Below are positions 3 through 14,336 of a stretch of DNA of 16,276 nt, in pieces. Source of the DNA: Verrucomicrobia bacterium TMED44 (GTDB taxonomy: Bacteria > Verrucomicrobiota > Verrucomicrobiia > Opitutales > Seribacteraceae); assembly GCA_002168015.1 (NCBI GenBank), contig NHCX01000097.1, positions 1-16,276 on the forward strand, in the 5' to 3' direction. The translations under genes and the position numbers were made by a program. Within the stretch, counting starts at the first letter, position 1. Every line of letters begins with the position of its first letter. Under the pieces are notes generated by a model, which worked only from the letters and a program-made list of their open reading frames with translations, searched no databases and was not told the origin of the DNA.

Positions 3-3000
3 ACTCGTGGTGGAATTAGTACCGGAAATGCCGATGCCTTTCAGTTCGGAAGGTGGAGAAATGATGGGAATGCTTATTTCCAGGGAAGTTTGGACGATTT
101 ACGGGTTTATGATTCGGCTTTAGGCGGACAGGAAATCCTTCAGATTTTTGCTGGAGATGACCTTCGGGAAGAATTGGTACAGCACCAGTTTGATTTGTTT
201 GCCGCAGGTGATCCTACTGGCTTTTCGGTAAGTGGCTTACCCAGAGGATTAGCTTTAGATTCAGTTACAGGCGAGGTCTATGGTTTACCTTATGAAGTCG
301 GTATTTTTGATCTAAATGTTTCTGCATTTAACATAGCTGGAGAAGGTAAAGGGAATATTCGTTTGATTGTTAATAAAACCGCCCCTGCAACCTCCTCGGT
401 TACACCCAGGTCAGTGACCTCAAGTTCGGCAAAAATGTCGGCTCAAGTAGTTTCTGATGGGGGCGAACCGGTCAGCCTGTCTCTCTTTTGGGGAGTCACA
501 GACGGAGGAGTGAACACTAACACCAACCCTGCAGATCCGAATTTGTGGGATTACCGCATTAATTTGGCCGGAAATTATGCAGATGGTTTAGTTTCCGAGC
601 TTGTTACTGGTTTAGATATGAATGGCACATACTACTACAGGTGGATGGCTGGAAATTCGGTTACGAATGAGGCATGGAGTTCCGCATCAGAGGATGGCAT
701 GCTAGCGTGGTGGTCCTTGGATGAAAATTCAAATTCATTCTCCTTGGACAAAATCACGGATCGTAAGGCGACTTTTGTTGGTATATCTGAGTCTGACCGG
801 GTATTCGGTAGGAAAGGCAATGGCTTGCGTTTTGGGGGTGCTGGTGAGCATCTCGTGGTCAAAGGTTTTAAAGGAATCGTCGGAGATAAAGCCAGAACCT
901 TAAGTCTTTGGGTAAAAACTACTGACAGTACTGGGTCTTTAGTTAGTTGGGGAGATTCAGGTAATGGCAAGCTTTGGGAGGTTGAAGTGAGTAACGGAAA
1001 TTTGGGACTGCGTGTAAATGGTGGAAACCTAGAAACATCACAATCAATTAACAATAATATGTGGCGTCATATCGCTGCCGTTTTTCCAAGTTCAGCTGAA
1101 AACATGGAAGATGCAGTCCTTTATATTGACGGAAGTGCTCAATCCGTACTATCAGTCGGCAACCCCCTGATTAACACAGGAGATTCTCTTGATTTAATCA
1201 TTGGAACGAATTCCGCCGCTAATCATTTTGCTGGAATCCTTGATGAGATTCGTCTCTATGAACGGGGATTAAGTAGCAATGAGATCACCAGTATCTATCT
1301 TGACGGAACCATGGTTTTTACCACTTCTTCAACTGCACAACCTCCCGTAGTAGAACTTTCCAGGGTAATTGCGGAGGCAAATGCCAGTGTTACTGTTGTG
1401 GGCGATCTGGTAAGTAAGGATCTTACTGACCCTACCATTCGTATATATTACGGTCTCAAGGATGGTGGGTATAGCCCTGTTGATTGGAATAATTCGTATG
1501 TGAATGTGAATGGAGGTAGCCCCGTTTCCTTAGGTGAATTCAATGCTACACTAACAGGGCTTGTGCCTGGATCTCGCTATTTCTTTAGAGCCTTTGCCCA
1601 AAGTGCCGATGGCATGGACTGGTCAAGTGGTGACCCTGAGGTTGGTAGCGGTTTATTGGGCTATTGGCGCATGGACGAGGTAAACGGGTCTATGGTTTCA
1701 GACTCATTGTCTCCTTTCCGTCATGCAAATTATCTTGGAAATGATCTTAATAAAACGCGCCCAGTTGGTTTTAGAGCAAAAGCTCTATATTTTGACGGAT
1801 TTTCTAATCGCGTTCATTTGGATGCCAACAATACAGATTATTTGGAGCAATCTTTTGACGGGAGATCCGTAAGTTTGTGGGTGAAACCTGAATCTAAGTT
1901 TTACACCGGACTGAAAGTGGAAAAGTATGAGAACTTGGTTGGATACTATCCCTTTGACACGCAAACAGGGACAACTGTTAATGACATTTCAGTTAATGAG
2001 CTTAAAGGTGATCTACTCAACGGAGCCAGTTTACAAGGTGGTCAGTATGGACAGTCTGTTTACTTTGACGGATCGAATGATCAAGTTACGATTGCTTCCA
2101 GTGGCACAATGGCTTCGCTTAATCAGGAGTCATACACGATCTCGATGTGGGTTATGCCCAATACCAATAATTCAGGTACCTACACTGAGGGGCGTTTACA
2201 TGCCAATGGTTTTCTTCGTGGGATCGATGATACTTATTACACGAACATTGAATCTATGCTTGCTCTTACCCCGAGCGGATCAAATTATTTAACAAATGGT
2301 CCTGGTGGTCGCGGTTTAGATTTCAATAATAACAACGATTACCGAAATGCAGGTATTGGCATTAATCGAAATAATCAGTATCTGAGTTTATTTAATGGCA
2401 TATTTTATGCACCCTCTTCCGGTTCCTATCAGTGGGAGATTCGAGGCAATGACGATCGTGGAACAATATGGTTGGATCTCGATCAGGATGGGGTTTTTGA
2501 GACCAACGGAGATTTGGGTACCGAACAGTTGTTGTATCAGCCAAATTGCTGTGGCACTCAATCTACTACAGTTAACTTGAATTCCGGGTATTATCGTATT
2601 GCGATTGCTCATGGGCAGGGCGGTGGCGGTTCGAATCAGGAAGCTTACTTCTCCACACCTGGAGGTGGGCCAACCAGTTTGACCAAAATAAAACCATCTG
2701 ACTACCCTACCCTCTTTTTAACTGAGAATGAGAAAACCGTTATGAGTCGAGGACCGTTTCGCCTGTCCATGGATGGTGGTAATAATTTGGTATATTCTCA
2801 TGCTGATCAGCTGAGCTCGGTTAGTATCAGTACTAATCAGAGTTTACCTTCTGGAAATTGGGCACACCTGGTGGTTCGTGCTGATTATAATTCATCAAAA
2901 CTAGCTATCTATTTGGATGGTCAGAAGAAAAATGAAGTTTCTATTACAAGTGGTTCCCAACTTGAACTTGCCTCTTCCATTGCATGGACGATGGGTGGCA

Positions 3001-6000
3001 ATAATGTAATGTGGAAAGATTATTTTTCCGGGCAAATTGACGACTTGCGGTTTTATTCCACAAATCTAAGCGACAGCGAAATCCTTTCTATTTTCAATGA
3101 CGATATTAGTGCTGCAGTTACCGCGGCCAAAAAGTCTCAGGTTATTTTTGACGAGGGAACAGACTCTTCTGGTTTAACTATAGCCATAGACGATGATGGA
3201 TTTATAAGTTCAAAAATTGTAGAAGGAGGGGCCACCAGCTCACTCCTTTCTGAAATGTCCTTGCGTGACGAACAGTGGCATCATGTGGTGGTTACTTTTG
3301 GAGACTCTCCCAAGGCGTTTAAGCTCTATGTAGATGGTACTTTGCAAAATCAACCTGTGATTCATTCAAGCGGAATGGTCTCTATCCATTTGGAAGAGCC
3401 ATCACTTGGAGCAGTCGAAGGCACTTCTAATTATCCTGGCTTTGGCCATTTCATGGGCAGCATGGATGAATTACGTATCTACGATCGGGGTTTGGATGCT
3501 GGAGAAGTATCCAAAATACTGATCGGTGATTTTATCAATGAAGGATTTTTGGATTTCCTCGCGATAGAGAAGCCCCAAGTTATTACTCAGACGGCAATAG
3601 ATGTTCGTCCGAGTCAAGCGACTATGCGTGTCGAAGTACAATCTATAGGAGGTGAAATTGAGACGGTTAACTCTTCCAGCGACTTTACCTTCAAGAGAAA
3701 TACTTTTGAGACGATGCAGGCATGGTACTCCGGGTATGAGTTATCCAGTGATTATTCTAACGGTGAAGTGGTCAACCGTTGGTCTGACCTTTCAGGAAGT
3801 GGTAGAGATTTTGAAAATAGTTCAGGAGACCCCCAAGTCCTTTTAAGTGGATTAAAGGGCAAGCCAGTGCTTAATTTTGATGGAAATGATTTGCTCTGGA
3901 CATCTCATGATTTTGACCATCTAGCGAACACTGGCTACACGATCCTTACTTTGGCAAGATATACAGGTTCTGCCAATAATCGGGTAATTTCTTCCCGTAC
4001 TCGAAACTTCTTATTTGGTTTTCATGGAGCCCTAACAGGTAGATGGCATGCAGAGGGTTGGATTTCCACTGCGGGCCCATTGGATTCGGATTGGCATCTG
4101 CATGTTGGTAAGATTGAAGCTAAGGGCGGAGACCCCCAGGCTTTTTTCCGTAAAGATGGAGAAGTTTTGGTTTCCGGTTCACGTGACTCACATAATACCG
4201 CCTTTGCTCCGGGTGTTTTACAGTTAGGTGGTTACATGACTAACAGAGAAATGTCAGCCTGTGAAGTCGCTGAAGTTATGATTTATAATCGTGAACTTAA
4301 TGAGGTGGAGCTTTCTCAATTAGAGGGTTATGTGGCTCATAAGTGGCAAATGAACAATGAACTCCTTCCGGTTTCTCACCCCTACTTCTCCATTGATCCG
4401 TTTGGTGGAAGCAGTGCAGTTACACAGCAGGTGACGAGCGGAGGAGACCGACCCGTGGTTAAAATCTTCTGGGGAGATAATAAAATTGAGAATAATTCAA
4501 CATTGCTTGATCCCAATGACGACAGTAAGTGGGACTATGTTTTTGAAGTCAATGCTTCGGGTCCCGTCGGTCTTGGAAGTTTTCTGGGGACTGTCGATCA
4601 GTTGGTTCAAGACACCCAATATTACTTCCGTGGTCACGCTGAAAACTTAGGTGGGGAAAAATGGGCACCAAACATCGAATCTTTCTTGGCGATGGATACT
4701 ACTTTCACCAAATACACTATGGAAGGTATGGTTCTTTGGCTGGATGCTCAGGATCTAGACGGGGATGGTTATTCAGATGCCGGTTACGCAGATGGACTGC
4801 CCATGCCGATCTGGATTGATAAATCATTAAATGAAAAACATGCCCGACAATCTGTCGCCCAAAAAATTCCCAATTATGCCCAGAATGTATTTGGCGGTTT
4901 GCCCGCGATACGCTTTGAATCTGGTGATGCTTATAATGTTGGTTCCCTCGGAGTAACTTATGGTAATGTCCATGTATTTATGGTGTCTAAAGGGAGTGGA
5001 GTTGGCATAGGTGCTACGGATGGTATAACGGGATGGAGTTTGGATGCGAAAAGTGGTAATGCCTTTGGGTCTTTCAAGAGTGAAAATAATACTCTCCAGC
5101 AGGTCAGTCTTGGGTTTGATCCTAGAACGGGCTATGGCATGCTGATCGGTGAAATTGCGGAGATAATGGTATTTGACCGGGCCCTCCCCAAGGCAGAAGA
5201 GGAAATGATTGAAGGATATCTTGCACACAAATGGGGTGTTGTTGATGATCTAGCTCAAACTGGTTTTAAACTCACACGTGGTTTGAGGTTATACTACCCC
5301 TTTAATGAAACGGATGGTTCGGTTGTCCAAGATTATTCTGTTGAGATGAGGCACGCTGAAGTCATTGATGCAGATCTTAGCGTAAACGGTAAATTTGGTT
5401 CTGCGATTGACTTTGAATCCATCGACCCTTTTACAGCTCGCTTAGCTCTGTATCAGAATGAACTGCAAATCAATAAAGGGGCTTGGACGATGTCTTCATG
5501 GTTTGAAGCTCCGGTCCCTGGCACAGGTGTCACCTTTAGGCATGGACTTGCCTATGGAGAGCCAGGTTATGTTTTCTTACGAAATGATTTTGGAGGTCCC
5601 AGCAAGATTTTGGGATTATTTGACGGTACCTCCGAAAAGCTCACTTCTTATGATGCAAGTTCTCTGAGCAGTGGTTGGCATCACATTACAGTAAGTAGTG
5701 CGGTCGGGAATACCAAATTTTTTATCAATGGTAATCATGTAGGTTCGATTTCTGATAATGTCATTTTAGAAGTAAAAACTGTTGGGAACCTGCTTGCAGG
5801 TAATGGAAAATTTTCTCCTAAATTGGATGATTTTAGAGTTTATGACCGTACTTTTTCAACAGCTGATGTCACGACTTTATATGGAAATGGAAATGGAGAT
5901 TTTGGGGTTCATCCTTATGCAGACTTCCCTCCCTCCTTTGATAATATTCCGGTGATCTTACCACCTCGAAACCCGATTGTTTATTGGACTTTCAATGAGC

Positions 6001-9000
6001 TGAACGGTACGCAGGTTCGTGATGATTCGGGCAAAAATAATCATGGTGTTTTTGATGATAATTTAACTGCATCGCCCAACCTTTTTGATTTCTCAGATGC
6101 AGGGAGAAGTGGAACAGGTATTCGTTTTGACGGGAATCAAACAGTTAAGCTGACAAATGATGCAGGCACTTTTGATATTCGTGGACCTTTTAGTATCTGT
6201 TTGTGGGTTAAAACGAATGATTTACAGGCAGAAATCTTATCAAGTGGGCAATTCTCCCTGCTTATGTCAGATGGCTTTTTGACTGCTTATGCCAATATCG
6301 GATCACAACTTAGGTACACCGAACCCATACCTATTCCTGCAGATCAATGGATTCATCTGATTTTTACTTGGGATGGTAATAAATTGTTTTTATATCGTAA
6401 CAATGAAGAGGTTATCACTCCAGTTAATGCCTCGGGTAACCTTACAGGAGATGCGACCCTAACCCTCGGAGGCAGGAAGCTTTCAGCGGATGGACCCTAT
6501 GAAGGTATGATTGATGATTTGCGTATTTTTGACCAATATCTTACCGCAGCCCAACGAAATGAAGTATTTAACTTTGTGGATCCCCCTCTGATAGCTTATT
6601 TTGGAGAAGATTTTAGTTATCAAGTAGAGACACTTAAAGGTCCCACAGATTTTAATGCGACCGGTTTGCCCAATGGTCTAAATATAGATGGTAAATCTGG
6701 ATTAATTTTCGGAGAAGCAAATCAAACGGGAGATTTTGCGATCACTGTTATTGCATCTAACCAGTCCGGGCAAGATCTGGAGATTTTTACTGATCCACTG
6801 CTTACTGTTCTTAAAGGTCGACAGAGTATTCTTTCTACAAACCAGGCAGACCTGCTAACTTATGGAGACCCACCGCTTGATCTTAACTTAACTGCAACAT
6901 CTGATCTTCCTGTTGCAGTCGAAATCTTAGAGGGTAATCAGTCCGTTGATCTAAATGGTACGACCCTAACTATTAATCATCCTGGATTTGTTCGCCTCCG
7001 TGCGTTCCAAGATGGAGATAATAACTGGCTTCCTGCACAATCATTAATCCTCAATTTCCAGATCATGCCTAAGGAACTGATTATTCGCCCTGATGATCAG
7101 TTTAGACGTCCTGAAGATGCGAACCCTGCTTTTACTCATCAACTGATTGGATTGGCTGAAAATGATTCTCCAAGTGATTTCAATGTGACAGTTGTCTCTC
7201 CTGTGCCTGACGGAAATGGTAGTCACCCTACTCTCTCTGGAGTCTATGACCTTGTACCTGATGCCAATCTCTCTGCAAAATATTTCTATTCCTATCAATT
7301 TGGTACTTTGACCGTTTCTGAAAAGTTAGAGCAAGAAATAGTCTTTGATCAAAATCTATCTGATATTCTCGCAACCACTCCATCTGTTGTTTTAACAGGA
7401 TATTCAAGGGGGATGGACGGTAACCTAACAAACCTACCCCTCACTTACAGTGTTGAGGATGAATCCGTAGCTCAAATCTTAGTTACGCAGAAAGATGCTC
7501 TTCGTGCATATTGGAAATTAAATGAAAATATGTATGCCGGAGCGAAGGATGAGTTGGGTAATTACAATGGAACTCTTCTCGAATTAACTACAACGGGAGC
7601 TGGTAATGTCTGGACTCCTGGACTTTTCGGAAATGGAATTACTCTAGGTGCAGAACGGGGGAGAATTGACTTTGGGACTGTTGAATTTGACTCTAATTTT
7701 AGCCTGAGTTTTTGGATGAAGCCGAGTCAGGTTGATTCCAACAAGACATTAATTTTGTCCAAAGAAGGAATTTCAGGAATGAATCTTTTCAGGATTGAAA
7801 AAAGTGATCAAAATTCAAGTCTGCGGGTATATCTATCTTTAGATGGAATTAATACACAACAAATTATTACTACAAATACAGGAGTCCTGATTGATAATAC
7901 ATGGGTGAACCTTGCCCTTACTTATGAAGATTCGAATGGAACTCTCTCTCTGTTCGCTAACTCGAATTTGATTGGGAGTTCTTCCGGTCATTTCTTCTCA
8001 GGAACTGAAATCTCTTCCCGGTTTACCAGTTTGGTTTTAGGTGGGGGTGTGTTGCCGATAGCTTCTGTAATTGACGATTTGCGTGTTTATAATATCTGTT
8101 TGAATTCAAGCGATTTATCTAATCTGTATGGAAATGGTGGAGCAGACTTTAACCGCATTGAATTAATTGGTGCGGGTCAGACTCGCATTGTGGCAAACCA
8201 GAAAGGAAACCTCGCATACGAAAAGTCACTACCTGTTTATAACTACTTGACTGTTATAAGGGCAGTTCAATCACTGGACTTCTCTTCGGTGGCGGATCAT
8301 TCGGTCGGAGATTTTCCAACCAAGCTTGAGGCGAATGCCAGTTCAGGTCTTCCGGTTTCCTTCTATTCCTCTGATCCTGCACTTGCTACAGTGGTGGGTG
8401 ATTATGTTTATTTGCAGGGTGCAGGTAATGTCACAATTACGGCTCGTCAGATTGGTGATCGTAGGTTTGAACCTGCTCCCGAGAAAACAAGATCATTTGT
8501 CATCAGATGGGGTAATCTCTTTTCGGATTCAACGCCAGGTTTGAAGTTATGGTTTGATGCAACGGATGTAAACGGAGACGGGCAAGTCGATACTTCTAAT
8601 GATTTTATATCTAGTGATAAAATAAGTATGTGGGCGGACAAATCCGGTAACACAAATAATCCAATTCAAGCCCAACTTTCCAATATGCCAAGGTGGACAC
8701 CTGCTGCTTTAAATCAAAAACCCATTGTTACTTTTGATTCCAACTTCAGTCAGATCTTTGAAATTCAGAATGCTGTTTCAAGTCCTTCTTTTGTCTTTCT
8801 GGTTCATCGCCAAAAACAGGTGGGGGAATCTTTGGTGTTGGGTGGAGACTTGAGCACCACAAGCGAAGACGGATTTCTCTCTCTCGAGCATGCTTCAGGA
8901 AGTGTGGAGATTATATCCAAAGCTTCTACCACTGCTTGGAGCATAAGTACTATGCGTGTCGCTCCTAACTCTCAGTCTCTTTGGGTAGATGGTAAAATTG

Positions 9001-10520
9001 TTGGAGCTCAATCATTTGGACAAGGAGCCTTAGCGGTGGATAAGGTTGGAGAACGTTTTGACGGAGAAATCGCTGAGGTTTTAGTATTTGACCAGCAGGT
9101 AAATGCAGTTAATCGGCAGAAGATTGAAGGCTATTTGGCTCATAAATGGAGTCTTAATAAGCAACTGCCTCAATTGCATCCCTATTCTAATGATCCTCCA
9201 GCCTTCGGCGGAGCACAGGAAATCTTCTGGGGGGGATTACTACAGTATACTGAGGACAATAAAACAAAATATAAACTTCCAGACAAAGCTTTTGGTGATC
9301 CAAGCTTCGAACTGATCGCTTATTCTACCTCAGGTTTACCCGTTAGTTTTGTCTCCAGTAATCCCTCGGTTGCTACAATTGTGGGGAATTTAGTTTATCT
9401 CAATGGTGTCGGGGAGTCTACGATCAGTGCCATTCAAATGGGGGATACGCGTTATCACCCAGCTCTGCCCAAGAGCCATGTTCTGAAAGTTATTCAACCT
9501 GTTCCAAAAGATGATCAAACTATTGATTTTAAAGATATTTCCATAAAAGTACGGGATGATCCACCATTCCTAGTTAACGCAACTGCTTCTTCTGGCATGC
9601 CAGTTCTTTTTACCATAGATTCTGGTCCTGCAACGATTGATTCTACAGGTTTGGTCATCCTGGATGGAGTAACTGGAACTGTAGTTGTAACCGCTGCTCA
9701 ACCTGGAAGTGCATATTTTAATCCAGCCCCACCAATAACTCGGATTTTTGAAGTATCTGCTAAGCAAAGACCCGAAATCATCTTTCCGCAAAGTGCTGAT
9801 CACGGGCAACTTGATGATGTCATCTTTGGGCATCGTCCCCTTATTTTACAAGGTGTGTATGCCACCAGCGGTTCACCCTTCGTGATTACGAGTTCAAATT
9901 CAACAATTGTCGATGTTTATCAGGGAGATAAAATTATTCCTAAAGAAGAAGGTACCGTAGTTTTAACCTTTGATGTGCCAGCCAACCAGTTTTTTGTGGA
10001 AGCTGAAACTAAAATTAAAATTTTAAAAGTTGTAAAACCCACCCATATCAATTGGAAAGCTTTTCGTAAAAGAGATGTTCGCTATTCAATTTTACAAGAA
10101 AGATTTGCTAAAAGAATGACTTCCTCGGGAGACAATCCCCTGTATGCTCGGAAGATCTTTGATGAAGATTACAGCGATTCAGACGGAGATGGTTATCGGA
10201 ATGACTTTGAGCGTGCTCTGGGACTTGACTCTCTTGGGGTAGATAGTCCTTACCATTTACCTTTGCAATATGTTGGTGCTTCAGACGGTAAGCAAAGAAT
10301 ATCTTTTATCCGCTACAAAACCCCCCTCCAGACCACGGGTGAGGAATTTAGGTACATTATTGAAAGTAGCGATAATTTGAGAACATGGACGAGCAATGGG
10401 GTTTCCATGGAGGTTGCCCATGACCTTGGCGGTGGCATGGAGCGGGTCACCTTTATCAGTGATAATCAGATTTCAGCAGGGAAAAGAAACTTTCTTCGAT
10501 TACGCGTCGAGAAGCCCTAG
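3..10520 (+). CDS. Giant secreted LamG / Ig-like / jelly-roll multidomain protein (5'-truncated by window)
   Basis: The frame is open to the window edge, so the first codon is upstream and at least 3505 residues are visible. A TTG at position 90 would give an ORF start but lies inside a LamG tail, so it is not the real start. Modules in order (approximate nucleotides): LamG tail 3-160; He_PIG 160-385; Fn3-like 385-690; LamG 693-1308; Fn3-like 1347-1630; LamG 1645-3525 containing a second LamG (1921-3130) that contains a PA14-like module (2175-2714); Fn3 fragment 3600-3665; AHKW jelly roll 3715-4382; Fn3-like 4395-4690; AHKW jelly roll 4713-5250 plus tail 5908-5965 split by LamG 5253-5907; LamG 5970-6575; He_PIG 6580-6810; Ig-like/MBG 6820-7320; Ig-like 7330-8265 split by LamG 7497-8150; Ig-like 8268-8510; AHKW jelly roll 8520-9190; three Ig-like 9195-10035; C-terminal module. 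LamG ends are recognised by repeats of the type DDLRxYDxxL. Only a handful of cysteines occur, and no LPXTG or PEP-CTERM anchor is seen. An adhesion, carbohydrate-binding or surface role is inference; no catalytic domain is recognised. Confidence 0.93.
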   Translation, partial: TRGGISTGNADAFQFGRWRNDGNAYFQGSLDDLRVYDSALGGQEILQIFAGDDLREELVQHQFDLFAAGDPTGFSVSGLPRGLALDSVTGEVYGLPYEVGIFDLNVSAFNIAGEGKGNIRLIVNKTAPATSSVTPRSVTSSSAKMSAQVVSDGGEPVSLSLFWGVTDGGVNTNTNPADPNLWDYRINLAGNYADGLVSELVTGLDMNGTYYYRWMAGNSVTNEAWSSASEDGMLAWWSLDENSNSFSLDKITDRKATFVGISESDRVFGRKGNGLRFGGAGEHLVVKGFKGIVGDKARTLSLWVKTTDSTGSLVSWGDSGNGKLWEVEVSNGNLGLRVNGGNLETSQSINNNMWRHIAAVFPSSAENMEDAVLYIDGSAQSVLSVGNPLINTGDSLDLIIGTNSAANHFAGILDEIRLYERGLSSNEITSIYLDGTMVFTTSSTAQPPVVELSRVIAEANASVTVVGDLVSKDLTDPTIRIYYGLKDGGYSPVDWNNSYVNVNGGSPVSLGEFNATLTGLVPGSRYFFRAFAQSADGMDWSSGDPEVGSGLLGYWRMDEVNGSMVSDSLSPFRHANYLGNDLNKTRPVGFRAKALYFDGFSNRVHLDANNTDYLEQSFDGRSVSLWVKPESKFYTGLKVEKYENLVGYYPFDTQTGTTVNDISVNELKGDLLNGASLQGGQYGQSVYFDGSNDQVTIASSGTMASLNQESYTISMWVMPNTNNSGTYTEGRLHANGFLRGIDDTYYTNIESMLALTPSGSNYLTNGPGGRGLDFNNNNDYRNAGIGINRNNQYLSLFNGIFYAPSSGSYQWEIRGNDDRGTIWLDLDQDGVFETNGDLGTEQLLYQPNCCGTQSTTVNLNSGYYRIAIAHGQGGGGSNQEAYFSTPGGGPTSLTKIKPSDYPTLFLTENEKTVMSRGPFRLSMDGGNNLVYSHADQLSSVSISTNQSLPSGNWAHLVVRADYNSSKLAIYLDGQKKNEVSITSGSQLELASSIAWTMGGNNVMWKDYFSGQIDDLRFYSTNLSDSEILSIFNDDISAAVTAAKKSQVIFDEGTDSSGLTIAIDDDGFISSKIVEGGATSSLLSEMSLRDEQWHHVVVTFGDSPKAFKLYVDGTLQNQPVIHSSGMVSIHLEEPSLGAVEGTSNYPGFGHFMGSMDELRIYDRGLDAGEVSKILIGDFINEGFLDFLAIEKPQVITQTAIDVRPSQATMRVEVQSIGGEIETVNSSSDFTFKRNTFETMQAWYSGYELSSDYSNGEVVNRWSDLSGSGRDFENSSGDPQVLLSGLKGKPVLNFDGNDLLWTSHDFDHLANTGYTILTLARYTGSANNRVISSRTRNFLFGFHGALTGRWHAEGWISTAGPLDSDWHLHVGKIEAKGGDPQAFFRKDGEVLVSGSRDSHNTAFAPGVLQLGGYMTNREMSACEVAEVMIYNRELNEVELSQLEGYVAHKWQMNNELLPVSHPYFSIDPFGGSSAVTQQVTSGGDRPVVKIFWGDNKIENNSTLLDPNDDSKWDYVFEVNASGPVGLGSFLGTVDQLVQDTQYYFRGHAENLGGEKWAPNIESFLAMDTTFTKYTMEGMVLWLDAQDLDGDGYSDAGYADGLPMPIWIDKSLNEKHARQSVAQKIPNYAQNVFGGLPAIRFESGDAYNVGSLGVTYGNVHVFMVSKGSGVGIGATDGITGWSLDAKSGNAFGSFKSENNTLQQVSLGFDPRTGYGMLIGEIAEIMVFDRALPKAEEEMIEGYLAHKWGVVDDLAQTGFKLTRGLRLYYPFNETDGSVVQDYSVEMRHAEVIDADLSVNGKFGSAIDFESIDPFTARLALYQNELQINKGAWTMSSWFEAPVPGTGVTFRHGLAYGEPGYVFLRNDFGGPSKILGLFDGTSEKLTSYDASSLSSGWHHITVSSAVGNTKFFINGNHVGSISDNVILEVKTVGNLLAGNGKFSPKLDDFRVYDRTFSTADVTTLYGNGNGDFGVHPYADFPPSFDNIPVILPPRNPIVYWTFNELNGTQVRDDSGKNNHGVFDDNLTASPNLFDFSDAGRSGTGIRFDGNQTVKLTNDAGTFDIRGPFSICLWVKTNDLQAEILSSGQFSLLMSDGFLTAYANIGSQLRYTEPIPIPADQWIHLIFTWDGNKLFLYRNNEEVITPVNASGNLTGDATLTLGGRKLSADGPYEGMIDDLRIFDQYLTAAQRNEVFNFVDPPLIAYFGEDFSYQVETLKGPTDFNATGLPNGLNIDGKSGLIFGEANQTGDFAITVIASNQSGQDLEIFTDPLLTVLKGRQSILSTNQADLLTYGDPPLDLNLTATSDLPVAVEILEGNQSVDLNGTTLTINHPGFVRLRAFQDGDNNWLPAQSLILNFQIMPKELIIRPDDQFRRPEDANPAFTHQLIGLAENDSPSDFNVTVVSPVPDGNGSHPTLSGVYDLVPDANLSAKYFYSYQFGTLTVSEKLEQEIVFDQNLSDILATTPSVVLTGYSRGMDGNLTNLPLTYSVEDESVAQILVTQKDALRAYWKLNENMYAGAKDELGNYNGTLLELTTTGAGNVWTPGLFGNGITLGAERGRIDFGTVEFDSNFSLSFWMKPSQVDSNKTLILSKEGISGMNLFRIEKSDQNSSLRVYLSLDGINTQQIITTNTGVLIDNTWVNLALTYEDSNGTLSLFANSNLIGSSSGHFFSGTEISSRFTSLVLGGGVLPIASVIDDLRVYNICLNSSDLSNLYGNGGADFNRIELIGAGQTRIVANQKGNLAYEKSLPVYNYLTVIRAVQSLDFSSVADHSVGDFPTKLEANASSGLPVSFYSSDPALATVVGDYVYLQGAGNVTITARQIGDRRFEPAPEKTRSFVIRWGNLFSDSTPGLKLWFDATDVNGDGQVDTSNDFISSDKISMWADKSGNTNNPIQAQLSNMPRWTPAALNQKPIVTFDSNFSQIFEIQNAVSSPSFVFLVHRQKQVGESLVLGGDLSTTSEDGFLSLEHASGSVEIISKASTTAWSISTMRVAPNSQSLWVDGKIVGAQSFGQGALAVDKVGERFDGEIAEVLVFDQQVNAVNRQKIEGYLAHKWSLNKQLPQLHPYSNDPPAFGGAQEIFWGGLLQYTEDNKTKYKLPDKAFGDPSFELIAYSTSGLPVSFVSSNPSVATIVGNLVYLNGVGESTISAIQMGDTRYHPALPKSHVLKVIQPVPKDDQTIDFKDISIKVRDDPPFLVNATASSGMPVLFTIDSGPATIDSTGLVILDGVTGTVVVTAAQPGSAYFNPAPPITRIFEVSAKQRPEIIFPQSADHGQLDDVIFGHRPLILQGVYATSGSPFVITSSNSTIVDVYQGDKIIPKEEGTVVLTFDVPANQFFVEAETKIKILKVVKPTHINWKAFRKRDVRYSILQERFAKRMTSSGDNPLYARKIFDEDYSDSDGDGYRNDFERALGLDSLGVDSPYHLPLQYVGASDGKQRISFIRYKTPLQTTGEEFRYIIESSDNLRTWTSNGVSMEVAHDLGGGMERVTFISDNQISAGKRNFLRLRVEKP
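1645..3525 (+). other. LamG domain interrupted by an inserted LamG + PA14-like cassette
   Basis: The outer LamG starts normally (GLLGYWRMDE, then SVSLWVKPES near 1866-1895) and stops after about 90 residues. A fresh LamG start (NLVGYYPFD, near 1933) follows and runs to its own end signature (QIDDLRFYSTNLSDSEI, near 3033-3083). The missing second half of the outer LamG then appears: QVIFDEGTDSSG, QWHHVVVTFGD, KLYVDGTL and finally MDELRIYDRGLDAGEV near 3463-3510. Each half lacks what the other supplies, so this is one domain split by another, not three tandem domains. Confidence 0.8.
2175..2714 (+). other. PA14/GLEYA-like module nested inside the inserted LamG
   Basis: The inner LamG breaks off after its SMWVMPNT strand and resumes at FLTENEKTVMSRGPFRLSM. 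In between are about 180 residues with the hallmarks of a PA14-like beta sandwich: a flow of FNGIFYAPSSGSYQWEIRG, then NDDRGTIWLDLDQDG with an acidic loop at 2475-2501, then GYYRIAIAHGQGGGGSN. PA14 domains bind carbohydrate or act in adhesion in several families; ligand and activity here are unknown. A vicinal Cys-Cys pair (2547-2552) is unusual in a protein that otherwise has very few cysteines. Confidence 0.65.
3715..4382 (+). other. ConA-like jelly-roll module with AHKW / HPY signature (copy A)
   Basis: The module opens with MQAWYSG, has WSDLSGSGRDF and KPVLNFDGNDL, then EVAEVMIYNREL, and ends with GYVAHKW followed by LLPVSHPY. It is a LamG-like fold variant common in verrucomicrobial and planctomycetal secreted proteins. 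Related copies lie near 4713-5250 (with its tail at 5908-5965) and 8520-9190. It is the one long stretch of the protein with no acidic N-X-S/T sequon. Confidence 0.6.
5253..5907 (+). other. LamG cassette inserted in the C-terminal tail of jelly roll B
   Basis: Jelly roll B (from LWLDAQDLDGDGYSDAG near 4740) reaches GYLAHKWGVVDDL and is then broken. A complete LamG follows, from LRLYYPFNETDG to DDFRVYDRTF and LYGNGNGDFG. Only after it does the HPY element that normally closes this jelly roll appear (VHPYADFPPSF). Copies A and C in the same protein keep AHKW and HPY about a dozen residues apart, which is the internal control for this reading. Confidence 0.65.
7497..8150 (+). other. LamG cassette inserted in a bacterial Ig-like domain
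   Basis: An Ig-like domain starts at QEIVFDQNLSDILATTPSVV and reaches SVEDESVAQILV, where a strand expected to finish with a hydrophobic-G-x-G turn is missing. A complete LamG follows (LRAYWKLNEN to DDLRVYNICLNSSD), ending in LYGNGGADF. The Ig remainder then appears: RIELIGAGQTRIVANQKGN and the closing YNYLTVIR. The intact Ig-like copy at 8268-8510 shows the same order without interruption (PALATVVGDYVYLQGAGNV). Confidence 0.65.
10040..10520 (+). other. C-terminal module with calcium-type acidic loop and terminal beta domain
   Basis: After the last Ig-like domain comes a charged helix-like linker (WKAFRKRDVRYSILQERFAK), then DSDGDGYRNDFERALGLD (10176-10229), which resembles thrombospondin type 3 or dockerin calcium loops. 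A beta-rich end follows with YIIESSDNLRTWT and a final RNFLRLRV. This arrangement is common at the C-termini of large secreted verrucomicrobial proteins. A role in export or surface retention is plausible but unproven. Confidence 0.6.
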
Positions 10521-10558
10521 CTTAATATTTGCCGATCGTTTTAATCTTTTCCTTCCAT

Positions 10559-10581
10559 AGCTTTAGGTGTAAGCTTTTTTT
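10559..10581 (+). terminator. Short intrinsic terminator after the giant gene
   Basis: A 5-bp stem (AGCTT at 10559-10563 with AAGCT at 10571-10575) and a 7-base loop run into a stretch of seven T. It starts 38 bases after the giant gene's TAG. The stem is short, so efficiency is uncertain. Confidence 0.45.
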
Positions 10582-10649
10582 ATGAAAACATACCGAATTA
10601 TTGTTTTCTTACTTTAATCACCAAAATATAAATTCAACCAAAAATTAGA
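10582..10649 (+). promoter_or_regulatory. Candidate promoter/leader region of the rhodanese gene
   Basis: An AT-rich stretch between the upstream terminator and the rhodanese ATG contains a TATAAA hexamer at 10627-10632, but no -35 at standard spacing (TTGTTT lies 20 bases upstream). No Shine-Dalgarno precedes the ATG at 10650. Independent transcription of the rhodanese gene is inferred mainly from the terminator before it. Confidence 0.25.
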
Positions 10650-11030
10650 ATGAAATTATTCTCTTACCTAGCCCTACTTGCCTTTGCTTTTCCTCTATTT
10701 GGGGGTGAATACCCAGACATCAGCGTGAAAGAATTGCAGGCCGCAATTAAAGATGGAAAAGTAGCGGTTATCGATGTTAATGGAGCCAAGTCCTTCGGGA
10801 AAGGACATATACCTACAGCGATTGACTTTTCATCTAAAGGTAAGAAGTTGTCGACCCTTTTACCTAAGGATAAAAATACCTTGGTTGTCTCTTACTGTGG
10901 TGGACCTGGATGCCGGGCTTACAAACGTGGTGCTGACGCTGCAGCTAAGCTTGGTTATAAAAATGTTAAGCATCTTTCAGCCGGGATTTCAGGATGGAAA
11001 CGATCGGGTGCCGAAGTAGCCAAAAAATAA
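10650..11030 (+). CDS. Secreted single-domain rhodanese-like protein
   Basis: The 126 residues begin with a signal peptide (MKLFSYLALLAFAFPLFGG), followed by one rhodanese domain of about 105 residues, the usual size for the single-domain family. Visible landmarks are VIDVNGAKSFGKGHIPTA (positions 40-57, matching the family's DVR...GHIPGA, with Asn for the usual Arg), the active-site strand VVSYC with the presumed catalytic Cys83, and a closing SAGISGWKRSG that matches the GG..GW end. The loop after Cys83 is GGPGCR, longer than the common single-domain loop and with a second cysteine at 88. Rhodaneses carry persulfide sulfur; here the protein should act in the periplasm or outside, where sulfur relay or redox handling is possible, but no partner is encoded nearby. 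The ATG is the natural start because it puts the hydrophobic segment at the N-terminus. Confidence 0.9.
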   Translation: MKLFSYLALLAFAFPLFGGEYPDISVKELQAAIKDGKVAVIDVNGAKSFGKGHIPTAIDFSSKGKKLSTLLPKDKNTLVVSYCGGPGCRAYKRGADAAAKLGYKNVKHLSAGISGWKRSGAEVAKK

Positions 11031-11050
11031 TTACCTTTATCATCAATTGG

Positions 11051-11084
11051 AAAAGGCGCCTTTTATAGGCGCCTTTTTTGTTTT
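11051..11084. terminator. Strong intrinsic terminator shared by convergent genes
   Basis: The arms AAAAGGCGCC (11051-11060) and GGCGCCTTTT (11068-11077) pair over at least 10 bp, with a further T-A pair and a 5-base loop inside. On the + strand the hairpin runs into TTTTTTGTTTT, ideal for ending the rhodanese transcript 20 bases after its stop. On the - strand the same hairpin is followed by only four T, a weaker signal for the convergent gene. Confidence 0.85.
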
Positions 11085-12295
11085 TGGTAATCTTGATTAA
11101 CAGAAGACAAGAACAGGTCGATTGTTTGACATTCCTGCGGTTCAAGGTGGGGATACTTATTTCGGCTATTTTGGGTCAGTACTCTGCTAAGTTTTTTATA
11201 AAATACACTTTTAATTTCTACAGGAAGTCCTGAACAAACTTTTCCGTTTATCATGTATGAACAACGAAACCTAAAAAGCCTTTGGTTTAAGTCGAAATTT
11301 CTCAGTAAATCGTTAGTGGAAGAATTGACTTCTAATTTTTGAAAGTGTTGAGCAAATGGCGAAAAACTTAGTTTGAATGGATTAGGTAGTTTAGGTTCAT
11401 TAAGGAACAAAACATAATCCAGGAATTCATCAGTCCATTGATCAATCATCGACTCTTTTTCAGATTGGGTACTTTTGTACGCTTCCCTGAATTGATACTG
11501 CATTTTGATACACAAGTTTATAAAACCAATTTGATGTTCCAAAACCAAATGAGCTATTGGGTCGCTGAAATGAGTAAGATGATCAGTCGTTCTTGGGTTA
11601 AGGTTTAGATTAATTTGTTGGAGTTCATTTTTTTCAAGAAAGCCCAAGGCGTTGGCCCAATTTTCCCCAAAGATACTTGCATGATTAATATACCAACCCC
11701 CGAATCGTAAGTTGTAGGGTAATTGATGTCCGGGTTTTCCATGATTGAGAACATCGAGCGTACCTCCCCCACTCATAGTAATAACTGATCCGAGCAGCAA
11801 ACCGGGTATAAATTCGGTCTTTTCTGAGGCGTGGCATTTCATGCAACGGCGGGATCGGTAAATTGGAGGGAAGTCGGCGTCTTCTGGGTTCGGCAGCCTA
11901 AAAATGTAGGGGATTGCACCAATCTTTGGGTCAATACCTATCACCTCTATTTGCCCATTTGGAACATACCCAAGATACAGGTCATCTGAAAAAAAGATAG
12001 CCCGAGGGCTTTTCGGGCTAATTTTACTGAGTTGCAGGCTTGTGTTTGAAAAAACTAATACTTGGCTCAGGTATGAAATTTTGAATTCTTTGAGCAGATA
12101 GCTCAACATTGAGGCTCTATTTGAATATCTATCAGTAGAAGATTTGCCAGATTCAATTACACTTTTTAAAGAAGTGAATGAATCTTGAGGTACATGTTGG
12201 TAATATTGATGAATCGAATTTTCAAAATCCACGCTGGAATAAGCAATTGGACTGAAAAGCCAAGAAGTGAGAAAGATCATTTTTGTTAACTTCAT
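11063..12295 (-). CDS. Secreted mono-haem (CxxCH) protein of unknown function
   Basis: The 410 residues begin with a signal peptide (MKLTKMIFLTSWLFSPIAYSS). A family-like core follows: QVLVFSNTSLQLSKISP (79-93), PRAIFFSDDLYLGYVPNG (97-114), then CMKCH at 151-155, the c-type haem attachment motif, after a basic YRSRR. Further on are HQLPYNLRFGGWYINH (190-205) and a mostly helical C-terminal half. I recall this arrangement (VFS.TS, PRAI.F.DD.Y.GWVP, C..CH, R.GGWY) from uncharacterised secreted proteins of Planctomycetes, Verrucomicrobia and relatives; no reaction is established. His190, His205 and others could supply a distal haem ligand. Cytochrome c maturation in the periplasm would be needed. 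The ATG at 12295 puts the signal peptide at the N-terminus; no clear Shine-Dalgarno is present. The C-terminus (KQKRRL) is encoded by terminator sequence. Confidence 0.85.
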   Translation of the reverse strand: MKLTKMIFLTSWLFSPIAYSSVDFENSIHQYYQHVPQDSFTSLKSVIESGKSSTDRYSNRASMLSYLLKEFKISYLSQVLVFSNTSLQLSKISPKSPRAIFFSDDLYLGYVPNGQIEVIGIDPKIGAIPYIFRLPNPEDADFPPIYRSRRCMKCHASEKTEFIPGLLLGSVITMSGGGTLDVLNHGKPGHQLPYNLRFGGWYINHASIFGENWANALGFLEKNELQQINLNLNPRTTDHLTHFSDPIAHLVLEHQIGFINLCIKMQYQFREAYKSTQSEKESMIDQWTDEFLDYVLFLNEPKLPNPFKLSFSPFAQHFQKLEVNSSTNDLLRNFDLNQRLFRFRCSYMINGKVCSGLPVEIKSVFYKKLSRVLTQNSRNKYPHLEPQECQTIDLFLSSVNQDYQKQKRRL

Positions 12296-12383
12296 CTACA
12301 AATCAGTTTAAATTTCTTTTCTCTTTCATTCTAAGAATTTGACTTTGCAATTCCAGTAAAGTTCTAGCAAGTTATTACTAGTC
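12296..12383. promoter_or_regulatory. Divergent intergenic promoter region
   Basis: These 88 bases separate the haem-protein gene and the TIGR02597-like gene. On the - strand a good -10 (TAGAAT, complement of 12328-12333) lies 32 bases before the haem-protein ATG, without a convincing -35. On the + strand TTGACT at 12339-12344 resembles a -35, but the hexamer 17 bases downstream (TTCTAG) is a poor -10. No operator-like inverted repeat is obvious. Confidence 0.3.
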
Positions 12384-14336
12384 GTGATTTCTTACCACAT
12401 TGATTACAAGCAGAAACAATCATTCTGTATGTTATTTTGCTTTTTTTGGATTTCGACAATTTTCGGTCAACAATCCAGTGATTTTCTTGGGTCAGTTTCG
12501 ATTGTCATAAAAGGAGGAACCGAAGCTTCCCCTAACTACGCAATAGTTTCTCCCTCATTGAAAGGGAAAGCGGTTTTTCGTGGTCAAGTTGAGAAAGTAC
12601 TAGATAACAATGTTTCCTTTTACAGGGTACCTGATCTACTAGATCCCACGACACTTTCAAAACCATTTAAAGCAGGAGTCTTTACTTCTCAGAAAGCAAG
12701 AGCCGTCGCAGTATTGAGCGATAACAATTACACCATTGAACGCATAGATGTGCCCCCCAATGGCGGTGGTAATAGTTATCTCGAAGCTCCGAGCGTTTTT
12801 GTGAGATTTCCCACCTTTAACCCAAATTTCACTGGCCAACTACGAAGTGCTAGTGCCAAGGCTCAACTTACTAGTGCCAGCGTCTCTGCAATCCAATTGA
12901 CTGACTCGGGTAATGGGTATTCTTCAATACCAGAAATTGAAATTGAAGGCGGGCCCCATTTGATAAGGCTGGTTGATTATGAATCAAATTATACAGGCAA
13001 GTTTTACCGCATAACTTCCAATTCTGGAGATCAGCTTACACTTCACAACCCACTACAGGAAAGTTTGAACAATATTTTTTTGACAGATTCGGAAGTTGAG
13101 ATCTTTGAAGCTTGGACCCTGGGCGAATTATTCGGTTATGAGTCAACGGCATTAAATGGCATCGACCCGCAAACAAACAGTGTTGCTCACGACCATATCT
13201 ATCTTTTAGCACCGACCAGCGACCAGAACGGTACTACATCAGATTTTATAGGCTTCTTCCATGATGGTACTTCATGGAAAAGATTGGATTCTCCTAGCGT
13301 TGTTGCCAATCATGAGATAATTCTCCCAAATCAATCCTTTGTCGTAGCAAGAAGATCACAAAATGATTTGAACTTGGTTCTCTCGGGAACCGCTTTATCT
13401 AAGAGTACTTACATTGGTGTTCCTGAATTTGGGAAGAAAACAATTTTAAGTAATCCCTATGGGGTAGATTTAATGCTATCTGATTTAATTGACACCAAAT
13501 TTATCACTGAAAATAACCAGTCGGCTTTTTTATGGTTAGCGGATCAGGAACAGGAGAAAGCTGACAATGTATTACTGTTAGAGGATGGGATATGGTCGAC
13601 CTATTGGCATGATGGCAGCAACCGAGCTGTGAGTCTTAACGCATCGGTTACGGCAAGGCCAGGTAGCGGTGCCGGAGCCTCGATGATGCAAAGAGATATT
13701 TCTTTTGCAGAGGGACTAATTACTGCAATGACAAACCCGACTTACGGTAGCAGTGTGAATGTGCAAATTACCTCTCCAAATCATGGACTGAGAGAAGGTT
13801 TTACCATTAAAGTTGAAAAAGCTCGTGGCTATAAGACTAATGATCAAAAGCAATTAATTAACGAGTTTGGTGAAATTGTGGATAATAATTCTTCGGCTTT
13901 AATCATTCAGTCTGGCGCGAATGGGTTCTTCTCTATCAATAAGGTTACTCAGGATAGCTTTTCCTTAGTTGGTAAGGCGGGTGATTGTAATTTTATTAAT
14001 GATGGGCAAGCGAAGTGGGTTACCGGAGGAGGTGGAACAGGTTATGAGTATGATTGTTATGTATCTTTCGTTGGTGGAGGTGGTACCGGAGCAGAGGGTA
14101 TAGCCAAAGTTGATAAAGTGAATGGAGTGGTGAAATCAATTTCCATCACTGATGGTGGCTCGGGTTACATTGAAGCACCCAAGGTGATTATTCATTCGGG
14201 TGGTTGGCGAAAAGTGGGGGCAGGTAATTCACCTTTTAATGATGTACTCATTCCGGCAGGTTCTGGGATAATGATAGTTCGTAACCACCCCGCTGCACAG
14301 GCAATTAGCTTTCCCGTTCGTAACCCATTCGAATAA
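12384..14336 (+). CDS. TIGR02597-like secreted protein with fibre-type insertions
   Basis: The 650 residues start at a GTG. The next in-frame ATG (12429, residue 16) would remove the lysines before the hydrophobic core MLFCFFWISTIFG, so GTG gives the better signal peptide. The core matches what I know of TIGR02597-family proteins of Verrucomicrobia: TGKFYRITSNSGDQLTL (204-220), AWTLGELFG (243-251), HIYLLAP (271-277), SWKRLD (297-302), QSFVVARR (317-324), NPYGVDLMLSDL (357-368), GIWSTYWHDGS (402-412) and a final AGSGIMIVR (625-633). Two blocks interrupt it. Residues about 105-190 carry two GGxxY..AP.V-type repeats. Residues about 415-607 carry an HGL...GFFSINKVTQDSFSLVG element (467-530), like FCCH-type modules in phage tail proteins, and a glycine-rich GGTGA...GGSGYIEAP repeat (564-607). 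Cys535 and Cys558 could pair. The family has no known function; a surface or extracellular role is likely. Confidence 0.85.
   Translation: MISYHIDYKQKQSFCMLFCFFWISTIFGQQSSDFLGSVSIVIKGGTEASPNYAIVSPSLKGKAVFRGQVEKVLDNNVSFYRVPDLLDPTTLSKPFKAGVFTSQKARAVAVLSDNNYTIERIDVPPNGGGNSYLEAPSVFVRFPTFNPNFTGQLRSASAKAQLTSASVSAIQLTDSGNGYSSIPEIEIEGGPHLIRLVDYESNYTGKFYRITSNSGDQLTLHNPLQESLNNIFLTDSEVEIFEAWTLGELFGYESTALNGIDPQTNSVAHDHIYLLAPTSDQNGTTSDFIGFFHDGTSWKRLDSPSVVANHEIILPNQSFVVARRSQNDLNLVLSGTALSKSTYIGVPEFGKKTILSNPYGVDLMLSDLIDTKFITENNQSAFLWLADQEQEKADNVLLLEDGIWSTYWHDGSNRAVSLNASVTARPGSGAGASMMQRDISFAEGLITAMTNPTYGSSVNVQITSPNHGLREGFTIKVEKARGYKTNDQKQLINEFGEIVDNNSSALIIQSGANGFFSINKVTQDSFSLVGKAGDCNFINDGQAKWVTGGGGTGYEYDCYVSFVGGGGTGAEGIAKVDKVNGVVKSISITDGGSGYIEAPKVIIHSGGWRKVGAGNSPFNDVLIPAGSGIMIVRNHPAAQAISFPVRNPFE

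Follow-up and report, generated by a model that had tools for sequence, protein, structure and literature searches.

The window, by which we mean the whole stretch of 16,276 nucleotides analysed here (contig NHCX01000097.1 of Verrucomicrobia bacterium TMED44, probably a marine bacterium), carries at 3..10520 of the forward strand a gene that lacks its 5' end and encodes a giant protein with LamG, He_PIG and MBG modules, 3505 aa of which are visible. The ORF is open at the contig start. Pfam search found Laminin_G_3 in seven stretches of the protein (E = 6e-106), with He_PIG over its cut-off and MBG_2 under its own. The product is a predicted N-glycoprotein with 31 acidic sequons (D/E-X-N-X-S/T), encoded on the forward strand at 309-323, 615-629, 1374-1388, 1482-1496, 1536-1550, 1677-1691, 1743-1757, 1821-1835, 2883-2897, 4488-4502, 4545-4559, 5997-6011, 6054-6068 and 6129-6143, then at 6648-6662, 6714-6728, 6879-6893, 6930-6944, 6948-6962, 7176-7190, 7209-7223, 7260-7274, 7347-7361 and 7416-7430, and finally at 7689-7703, 7734-7748, 7806-7820, 7929-7943, 8328-8342, 8736-8750 and 9252-9266. 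The middle ten, from DFNAT to DGNLT, form a dense cluster (6648..7430, forward strand) in a He_PIG and MBG region, where Pfam places He_PIG at residues 2201-2257 and MBG_2 at residues 2359-2437. A second predicted N-glycoprotein of 650 aa, assigned to the signal-peptide class by a crude rule, lies at 12384..14336 (forward strand), and a PriA-like helicase fragment, named so by the first-pass annotation, lies at 14348..16276 (reverse strand) and serves as the cytosolic control in the window.

The first-pass annotation had counted 49 N-X-S/T sites (X not Pro) in the giant protein, 31 of them with Asp or Glu at -2, and our recount of the ORF returned exactly these numbers (21 D and 10 E). It had also estimated that five to six acidic sites would arise by chance, and the strong excess it saw was borne out: 5,000 residue shuffles gave a mean of 4.1 and a maximum of 12 acidic sequons, and with D+E at 11.8% of residues the binomial P-value for 31/49 is 2e-17. 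The mirror motif (S/T-X-N-X-D/E), described there as rare, was found twice. Around the 49 sequon Asn residues, D/E occurs 31 times at -2 and 1 to 9 times at the other positions between -6 and +7, +2 being zero by definition. When N in the motif was swapped for other residues, 9 matches at most were obtained, the highest number with Leu. In the 12384..14336 protein, six of ten sequons are acidic as had been claimed (starts at 12603, 12720, 12981, 13221, 13509 and 13881, forward strand) and no mirror motif is present, but the name "TIGR02597-like" given to it is a loose label because no NCBIfam model matched at E 1e-3; a relative on contig C8 matches TIGR02597 at 2e-6. The PriA fragment has two N-X-S/T sites, neither acidic, as first reported. 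The ORF at 11063..12295, which the earlier count had left out, has two sites, one acidic, and the ORF at 10650..11030 has none.

To compare exported with cytosolic proteins, a sample of about 0.69 Mb, 29% of the 2.35-Mb genome, was divided into crude protein classes. With these crude classes and in this 29% of the genome, acidic sequons make up 113 of 274 in large modular S/T/G/N-rich proteins, 97 of 394 in the signal-peptide class and 62 of 522 in the cytosolic class, the last being equal to background and accompanied by 58 mirror motifs. Signal-peptide proteins other than the large modular ones have 70/336, about 1.7-fold enrichment by the same crude classes. Several large S/T/G/N-rich proteins have no acidic sequon (L003:11938-14376, 0/16; L248:10910-12811, 0/13; L233:1906-3117, 0/8; L021:2-2419, 0/7), and L003:11938-14376 and L233:1906-3117 among them belong to the signal-peptide class. 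In this way, the proposed enrichment in secreted proteins holds over the cytosol but is not uniform, being strong in large modular proteins, about 1.7-fold in others and nil in some large ones.

The STT3/PglB homologue for which a search had been proposed is present in the genome, with WWDYG. This oligosaccharyltransferase (OST) is encoded on contig C108 (PF02516, E = 3e-24) and passes the Pfam cut-offs of both PF02516 (81.6 bits against 24.5) and PF21436 (79.4 bits against 23), and its best solved relative is PglB 5ogl (E = 7e-70 over two stretches). In an alignment of 19 family sequences with 38 Campylobacterota PglB sequences, D105, D207, D209, E445, R457, R523 and W637-W638-D639-Y640 are identical in all. 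WWDxG and the acidic metal/acceptor residues (EL1 Asp, EL2 DxD, numbered D154/D156 in Campylobacter PglB, and EL5 Glu) occur in 19/19 family OSTs; so does R457, which aligns with C. jejuni R328 (C. lari R331), the Arg contacting the acidic -2 residue. The score for the PglB equivalog model NF050801 (NCBIfam) is 188.6 bits against a cut-off of 1300; judged by sequence, the enzyme is related to Campylobacter PglB and is not its equivalog by this model. Family OSTs are 1,038-1,140 aa long (n = 19), and 17 of the 19 have IxxI instead of MxxI at residues 750-753. The predicted model of the OST of L102 (mean pLDDT 82, pTM 0.79) has long helices up to residue ~612 and mixed and beta structure beyond it, a pattern that a polytopic N-terminal part with a soluble C-terminal part would give, and an extra C-terminal beta-rich region is confidently predicted at residues ~890-1080. 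A stretch near residues 981-1026 of the model reads to us as LysM-like (beta-alpha-alpha-beta); Pfam listed no LysM in the OST at 0.01.

Neighbouring the OST gene are genes for a membrane protein of 775 aa, a coiled-coil protein of 566 aa and a FecR protein. The pgl-like glycan cluster that the first-pass annotation had suggested looking for was not seen beside the OST gene in this family. Three PF02397 sugar-phosphate transferases are encoded in the genome, and the two loci examined by Pfam both lie among polysaccharide-type genes. The 775-aa and 566-aa proteins were considered as partners of the OST only and rejected, since other families of the same order have relatives of both (of the 566-aa protein in 11/20 genomes, of the 775-aa protein in 10/20), adjacent to each other in several of them; no WWDxG-type OST was found in these same-order genomes. 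Weak PF02516 matches in G042 and G052 were rejected as OSTs, no WWDxG being present in ORFs >400 aa of the fetched stretches.

Among relatives (Opitutia/Opitutales records), the OST was found in 29 of the 37 genomes of its own family. Seven of the eight family genomes without it also lack both neighbour genes, and in the eighth the locus ends at a contig break. Across genomes, the sequon enrichment co-occurs with the OST: in giant LamG proteins of 10 OST-bearing genomes, 350 of 843 sequons are acidic, and 10/10 giants are enriched (P-values from 4e-3 to 5e-34), while in four same-order genomes without OST the proportion is 34/308, equal to background, and 0/8 giants are enriched (P-values from 0.23 to 0.99). 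With the window protein included, the family giants have 381/892 acidic (511/892 non-acidic) against 34/308 (P-value = 8e-27, Fisher test). The signal varies within the family, the G035 giant being weakly enriched (18/106) and the TIGR02597-type protein of G031 having 0/5 acidic. Beyond the family, PglB-bearing Verrucomicrobiota include enriched cases (G436, 24/41; G439, 19/70 and 7/24) and cases with little signal in the stretches examined (G435, 5/49; G437, 8/69; G438, 7/34).

The fine structure of the sequons was analyzed in 13 giants (448 acidic and 579 non-acidic sequons). Ala at +1 is found in 96/448 acidic against 39/579 non-acidic sequons (P-value = 7e-12), and Pro is scarce in acidic sequons at +3 (2/448 against 28/579), where it disfavours N-glycosylation, and at -1 (4/448 against 28/579). 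In 10 giants, D/E-X-N-P-S/T occurs three times, compared with 350 non-Pro counterparts. Acidic and non-acidic sequons also differ outside the PglB rule, one example being the higher frequency of Leu, counted 69 against 37 times at -1 and 59 against 34 times at -5. The median gap between consecutive acidic sequons is 70 residues.

Several other explanations were weighed. The OST might be real but act on few substrates or conditionally, the sequons of the giants being a relic of past use. The acidic share, which spans 17% to 59% among family giants, would fit this, but every catalytic motif tested is intact in 19/19 family OSTs, and the -2 bias persists while sequon contexts diverge, from which we infer ongoing selection; we regard a relic as improbable. 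Alternatively, the motif could be a structural element of LamG/Ig-like modules, whether as a signature of the domain or as a D-x-N-x-S/T/D loop that binds Ca, since many extracellular proteins bind Ca through D-x-[DN]-x-[DNST] loops and the proteins concerned here are built of repeated modules. However, just 45/381 acidic sequons lie inside LamG domains (119 domains located with a purpose-built profile), spread over 16 match columns plus inserts, which agrees with the earlier view that one conserved domain motif is insufficient. Glu is frequent at -2 (135/381), non-sequon Asn residues of the window giant have D/E at -2 below composition (14/181), and to our knowledge neither +1 Ala nor the rarity of Pro at -1, +1 and +3 is a feature of Ca loops. 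As a general explanation it is refuted by the unenriched OST-less giants, and we consider it very unlikely. Another use of D/E-X-N-X-S/T, for example as a protease or lectin recognition motif, might select the same sequence, and glycosylation is here a prediction from sequence; but the co-occurrence with PglB and the fit to its acceptor rule at -2, -1, 0, +1 and +2 leave this reading scarcely credible. Composition (S+T+G+N is 0.327 of the residues of the window giant) or recent repeat duplication has a negligible chance of explaining the acidic count, being refuted by the shuffle, mirror and all one-residue substitution controls and by the uniqueness of 380/381 15-mers around acidic sequons, because of which neither repeat copying nor a single domain motif is the explanation.

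Very probably, then, the giant protein and those related to it serve as acceptors of a PglB-type N-oligosaccharyltransferase. The proteins would first be exported and then modified by the membrane OST encoded on contig C108, which would move a glycan already assembled on its lipid carrier en bloc to the Asn of D/E-Z-N-X-S/T (neither Z nor X being Pro). This transfer would occur at the outer face of the inner membrane, with R457 presumably pairing with the acidic residue at -2. The sites conform to this rule as an evolutionary footprint only. Through selection, such sequons would have accumulated in the large modular proteins of the surface, which in their mature form may be densely N-glycosylated, possibly for protease or phage shielding, solubility or adhesion. 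The first-pass annotation had proposed a general system of this type; the OST and the exported-protein enrichment support the type, but "general" is too wide, as the signal is centred on large modular proteins.

Like the PglBs of C. jejuni and C. lari, the family OST is a single-subunit STT3-type enzyme with conserved acidic and Arg residues and WWDYG; excerpts of PMC6215017 and PMC4894442 name D56, E319, R331 and R375 in Campylobacter PglB. As in the Campylobacter pgl system, the predicted acceptors follow D/E-Z-N-X-S/T, seldom have Pro at Z or X and show a preference for Ala at +1, the C. jejuni rule being D/E-X-N-X-S/T, neither X Pro, with the optimum DQNAT (excerpts of PMC4894442). Unlike the 713-aa C. 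jejuni PglB, the family OST has its greater length and predicted C-terminal beta-rich region, and unlike Campylobacter it has IxxI for MxxI in most members, no pgl genes seen beside it, giant modular proteins as strongest predicted acceptors, and a different phylum as host. Desulfovibrio PglB is likewise a bacterial STT3 outside Campylobacterota, but the tested Desulfovibrio OSTs are relaxed at -2 or favour non-acidic residues there, whereas a strong -2 acid preference is read here, from genomes alone; some OSTs keeping the -2 Arg are relaxed, so this Arg is not sufficient for acidic preference (same excerpts). Archaeal control sequences match the same Pfam families as the OST, and many N-glycans per surface protein, here predicted, recall the archaeal AglB/S-layer system, such as the Sulfolobus surface coat (excerpts of PMC4287180); the acidic -2 rule and the closest solved relatives of bacterial PglB kind set the family OST apart from AglB. 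A 2015 study places most bacterial OST genes in epsilonproteobacteria and smaller numbers in deltaproteobacteria and Aquificae (excerpts of PMC4894442). In the open-licence papers searched, no description of an OST in Verrucomicrobiota (including Opitut*) was found, and the excerpts of PMC4973528, PMC6048260, PMC5088730 and PMC4210606 state none.

PglB-type N-glycosylation would by these results extend to Verrucomicrobiota, and the acceptor rule of an uncharacterised OST, including +1 Ala and Pro scarcity, can be read from genomes alone and matches the Campylobacter rule. The family OST may serve glycoengineering as a useful new OST. Single open frames reach 14,789 residues and the sampled density is ~6 acidic sequons per 1,000 residues; if it holds, such frames would carry some 90 each. 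We tentatively raise a further possibility, itself rather doubtful, of an N-glycan coat that would be shared by the whole lineage and reserved for giant surface proteins, in which an OST with an added C-terminal domain, sitting in a fixed envelope operon, would be selective for very large modular adhesins and provide a eukaryote- or archaeon-like shield against proteases, phages or grazers. The operon would comprise the 775-aa, 566-aa, OST and FecR genes. The giants, being rich in sequons, would offer natural examples of heavy protein glycosylation in bacteria, with a testable purpose.

The first ORF of the window (3..10520, plus strand) encodes a giant modular protein of 3505 aa, open at the contig start, with Laminin_G_3 in seven stretches, He_PIG and MBG. 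It contains 49 N-X-S/T sites (X not Pro), of which 31 have D/E at -2 (acidic sequons), exactly as tallied in the first-pass annotation; the mirror motif S/T-X-N-X-D/E occurs only twice on recount. In 5,000 residue-wise shuffles the mean number of acidic sequons was 4.1 and the maximum 12, so the excess stands against both controls. It is confined to position -2, and only with S/T at +2: of the 181 other Asn residues in this protein, 14 have D/E at -2, and exchanging the Asn of the motif for any other residue gave at most 9 matches (Leu). The earlier counts for the ORF at 12384..14336 (plus strand, 6/10 acidic) and for the PriA control (fragment at 14348..16276, minus strand, 0/2) were reproduced. 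The ORF at 10650..11030 has no N-X-S/T site. The 410-aa protein (11063..12295, minus strand) has 1/2 acidic, a signal-like start by eye and one CxxCH motif, with no match in Pfam or NCBIfam.

The genome to which the window belongs as its 16.3-kb contig C58 comprises 2.35 Mb in 132 contigs and is 82.5% complete. A PF02516 search of it gave one match, a 1095-aa ORF on contig C108 (L002:1792-5079, minus strand), which is above the Pfam cut-offs for STT3 and STT3-PglB_core and carries W637-W638-D639-Y640; the STT3/PglB-type oligosaccharyltransferase (OST) that the first-pass annotation had proposed to look for is thus present. Using an alignment of 19 family OSTs as query (E 1e-3), four distinct solved sequences were matched: the C. 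lari PglB chains 5ogl, 6gxc and 3rce (best 7e-70) and 3aag, a 'general glycosylation pathway protein'. When the family OSTs and PglBs are aligned together, D105, D207, D209, E445, R457, R523 and W637-W638-D639-Y640 are invariant in 19/19 family and 38/38 Campylobacterota sequences. Counted along the aligned 5ogl row, D105 corresponds to D56 and R523 to R375, and D56, E319 and R375 are given as conserved PglB residues in PMC6215017. C. jejuni R328 occupies the alignment column of R457. According to PMC4894442, where 3rce is C. lari PglB, the counterpart of R328 in C. lari is R331, for which a salt bridge with the Asp at -2 has been proposed. The PglB match stops at profile position 873 of 1069; beyond it, the predicted model of the family OST from locus L102 (mean pLDDT 82, pTM 0.79) has a confidently predicted beta-rich extension (residues about 890-1080). 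A CxCxxC motif at residues 465-470 of the own OST, in the EL5-side insert, is found in 15 of the 19 family OSTs and absent from L054, L061, L070 and L065; it is perhaps a metal site or a disulphide. Among other PglB homologues, L167:5738-10546 and L169:7956-12827 are far above the usual length (1,603 and 1,624 aa), with 490 and 530 residues from the EL5 Arg to WWDYG vs 180 in the window's genome, and that of L165 (7054-9878, Verrucomicrobiae MAG G437) appears to be in pieces, interrupted in the assembly, a matching 251-aa ORF being followed by further ORFs.

Among 57 related genomes (own included), PF02516 was matched in 29 of the 37 of the own family and, weakly, in 2 of the 20 others of the order, where WWDxG was not found in the fetched stretches. 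Missing assembly is the likely cause in the eight family genomes with no match, because seven of them also lack both OST neighbour genes and in the eighth (G033) a contig end truncates the neighbour gene. A phylum-wide draw, which held few family members, gave PF21436 in 2/387 genomes, the own and G344, where two contigs each give a partial match. The public relatives of the enzyme (112 confirmed matches, reduced to 76 loci) are headed by MAGs and single cells named Opitutia, Opitutales or Verrucomicrobia, whose record names suggest a marine lineage; the remainder comprise Campylobacterota plus a few further Verrucomicrobiota. Fifty-seven OST sequences, none of them archaeal or deltaproteobacterial, were placed in a quick tree, where the family forms one clade (support 100); four other Verrucomicrobiota group together (support 86, flagged as long branches meeting), with Campylobacterota on the other side.

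The sequon excess follows the enzyme in a non-random comparative set of 20 stretches around LamG giants, picked from the listed matches for long open frames. In ten enzyme-bearing genomes, ten ORFs of at least 1500 aa (58,464 aa, cut at stretch ends) had 350/843 acidic sites (42%; mirror 54), with D/E at 7 to 11% at other tested offsets, vs 34/308 (11%; mirror 39) in eight ORFs (30,081 aa) from four enzyme-less genomes of the same order. Per protein, enrichment was seen in 10/10 enzyme-bearing giants (weakest G035, 18/106, p 4e-3) and 0/8 enzyme-less ones. Shorter ORFs (600-1499 aa) had 6/45 acidic in enzyme-less stretches, G042 included, and the sole family ORF of this size (G015, 1218 aa) had no N-X-S/T. 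For TIGR02597-matched proteins (30 of the 45 listed matches examined), the counts were 105/225 (mirror 23) in the family, ranging from 0/5 (G031) to 11/20 (G010), with 62/139 where the OST was found and 43/86 where it was not, and 5/21 (mirror 1) in other families. Two other PglB-bearing Verrucomicrobiota repeat the pattern (G436, 2544-aa protein, 24/41; G439, two proteins, 19/70 and 7/24); the stretches of G435, G437, G438 and G344, with few giants, gave 5/49, 8/69, 7/34 and 1/6. Single open frames with LamG domains reach 10,771 to 14,789 residues, very large for bacteria (G016:C5, G034:C106, G015:C101, G008:C62, G026:C22, G028:C6).

Repeat copying could not account for the acidic sequons, since 380/381 acidic 15-mers are unique; nor could one conserved domain motif, as the first-pass annotation had argued, because only 45/381 lie inside LamG domains (own profile), spread over 16 match columns plus inserts. 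Pro at +3 disfavours N-glycosylation. Comparing 448 acidic with 579 non-acidic sequons of 13 family giants (nominal p-values over about 160 comparisons), Pro was found at +3 in 2 vs 28 and at -1 in 4 vs 28, Arg at +1 in 4 vs 32, Trp at +1 in 1 vs 19, and Ala at +1 in 96 vs 39 (p 7e-12); at +2, 221 vs 241 had Thr and not Ser (p 0.016). In the ten enzyme-bearing giants, D/E-X-N-P-S/T occurs 3 times vs 350 with non-Pro. The C. jejuni PglB acceptor is given as D/E-X-N-X-S/T, neither X being Pro, with DQNAT as optimum, in PMC4894442. Preferences that this rule does not predict include Leu at -1 (69 acidic vs 37 non-acidic) and -5 (59 vs 34), Val at +3 (48 vs 29) and Pro at +5 (34 vs 17).

In the own genome, 381 kb (the window, C108, C1-C18, C28, C100 and C101, several of them truncated to at most 20 kb) and, once the pattern was seen, a further 305 kb (C19-C27, C29-C39) were sampled. 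By crude rules of our own for ORFs and export classes, which make errors (the window's 410-aa protein and L238:825-5489, 11/32 acidic, were classed as cytosolic despite signal-like starts by eye), acidic sites numbered 62/522 in the cytosolic class (mirror 58), 97/394 in the signal-peptide class (mirror 56; 70/336 without giant L010), 113/274 in the large S/T/G/N-rich class (mirror 20), 20/116 in the membrane class (mirror 18), 3/40 in the open-ended class (mirror 4) and 7/43 in the other class (mirror 4). The giants met were L010:1043-10804 (27/58) and, in the second sample, L234:3242-16387 (40/77). Six of the 16 S/T/G/N-rich proteins had no acidic sequon (largest counts 0/16, 0/13, 0/8 and 0/7). 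The earlier attribution of the excess to secreted proteins therefore holds on average and fails as a uniform rule, the heavy load being on large modular proteins. An identical 45-residue start of a giant protein occurs in ORFs on two contigs, L237:1694-2443 and L010:1043-10804, which may be strain variants or a duplicated gene within the assembly. The 15.5-kb contig C5 (L008) has the same 148-aa ORF at 2915-3358, 7980-8423 and 13044-13487, about 5,065 bases apart (first 60 residues compared, identical), and an ORF that is recombinase-like by eye; it is perhaps a concatenated small circular element.

The family gene order is a 775-aa membrane protein gene, a 566-aa coiled-coil gene, the OST and a FecR-domain gene. 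Of 30 public loci of the family type (L101-L130), several truncated at contig ends, 29 have the 566-aa relative, 27 the 775-aa relative and 21 a FecR-gene relative. The 775-aa and 566-aa proteins were rejected as OST-only partners because relatives occur in other families of the order, where no WWDxG-type OST was found. PglB of a different Verrucomicrobiota genome (L135) has UDP-sugar dehydrogenase, epimerase and aminotransferase genes next to it.

The family OST belongs to the STT3/PglB family and would work in the same way as the Campylobacter system. However, it falls below the NCBIfam PglB equivalog cut-off, and the linked pgl-like glycan cluster that the first-pass annotation had proposed to look for is lacking at the family locus, unlike in Campylobacter; it would thus be a variant of the known PglB system. 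Judged from sequence, this Opitutia family very likely has an active PglB-type N-glycosylation system with the acidic -2 rule, and the giant protein of the window very likely ranks among its main predicted acceptors.
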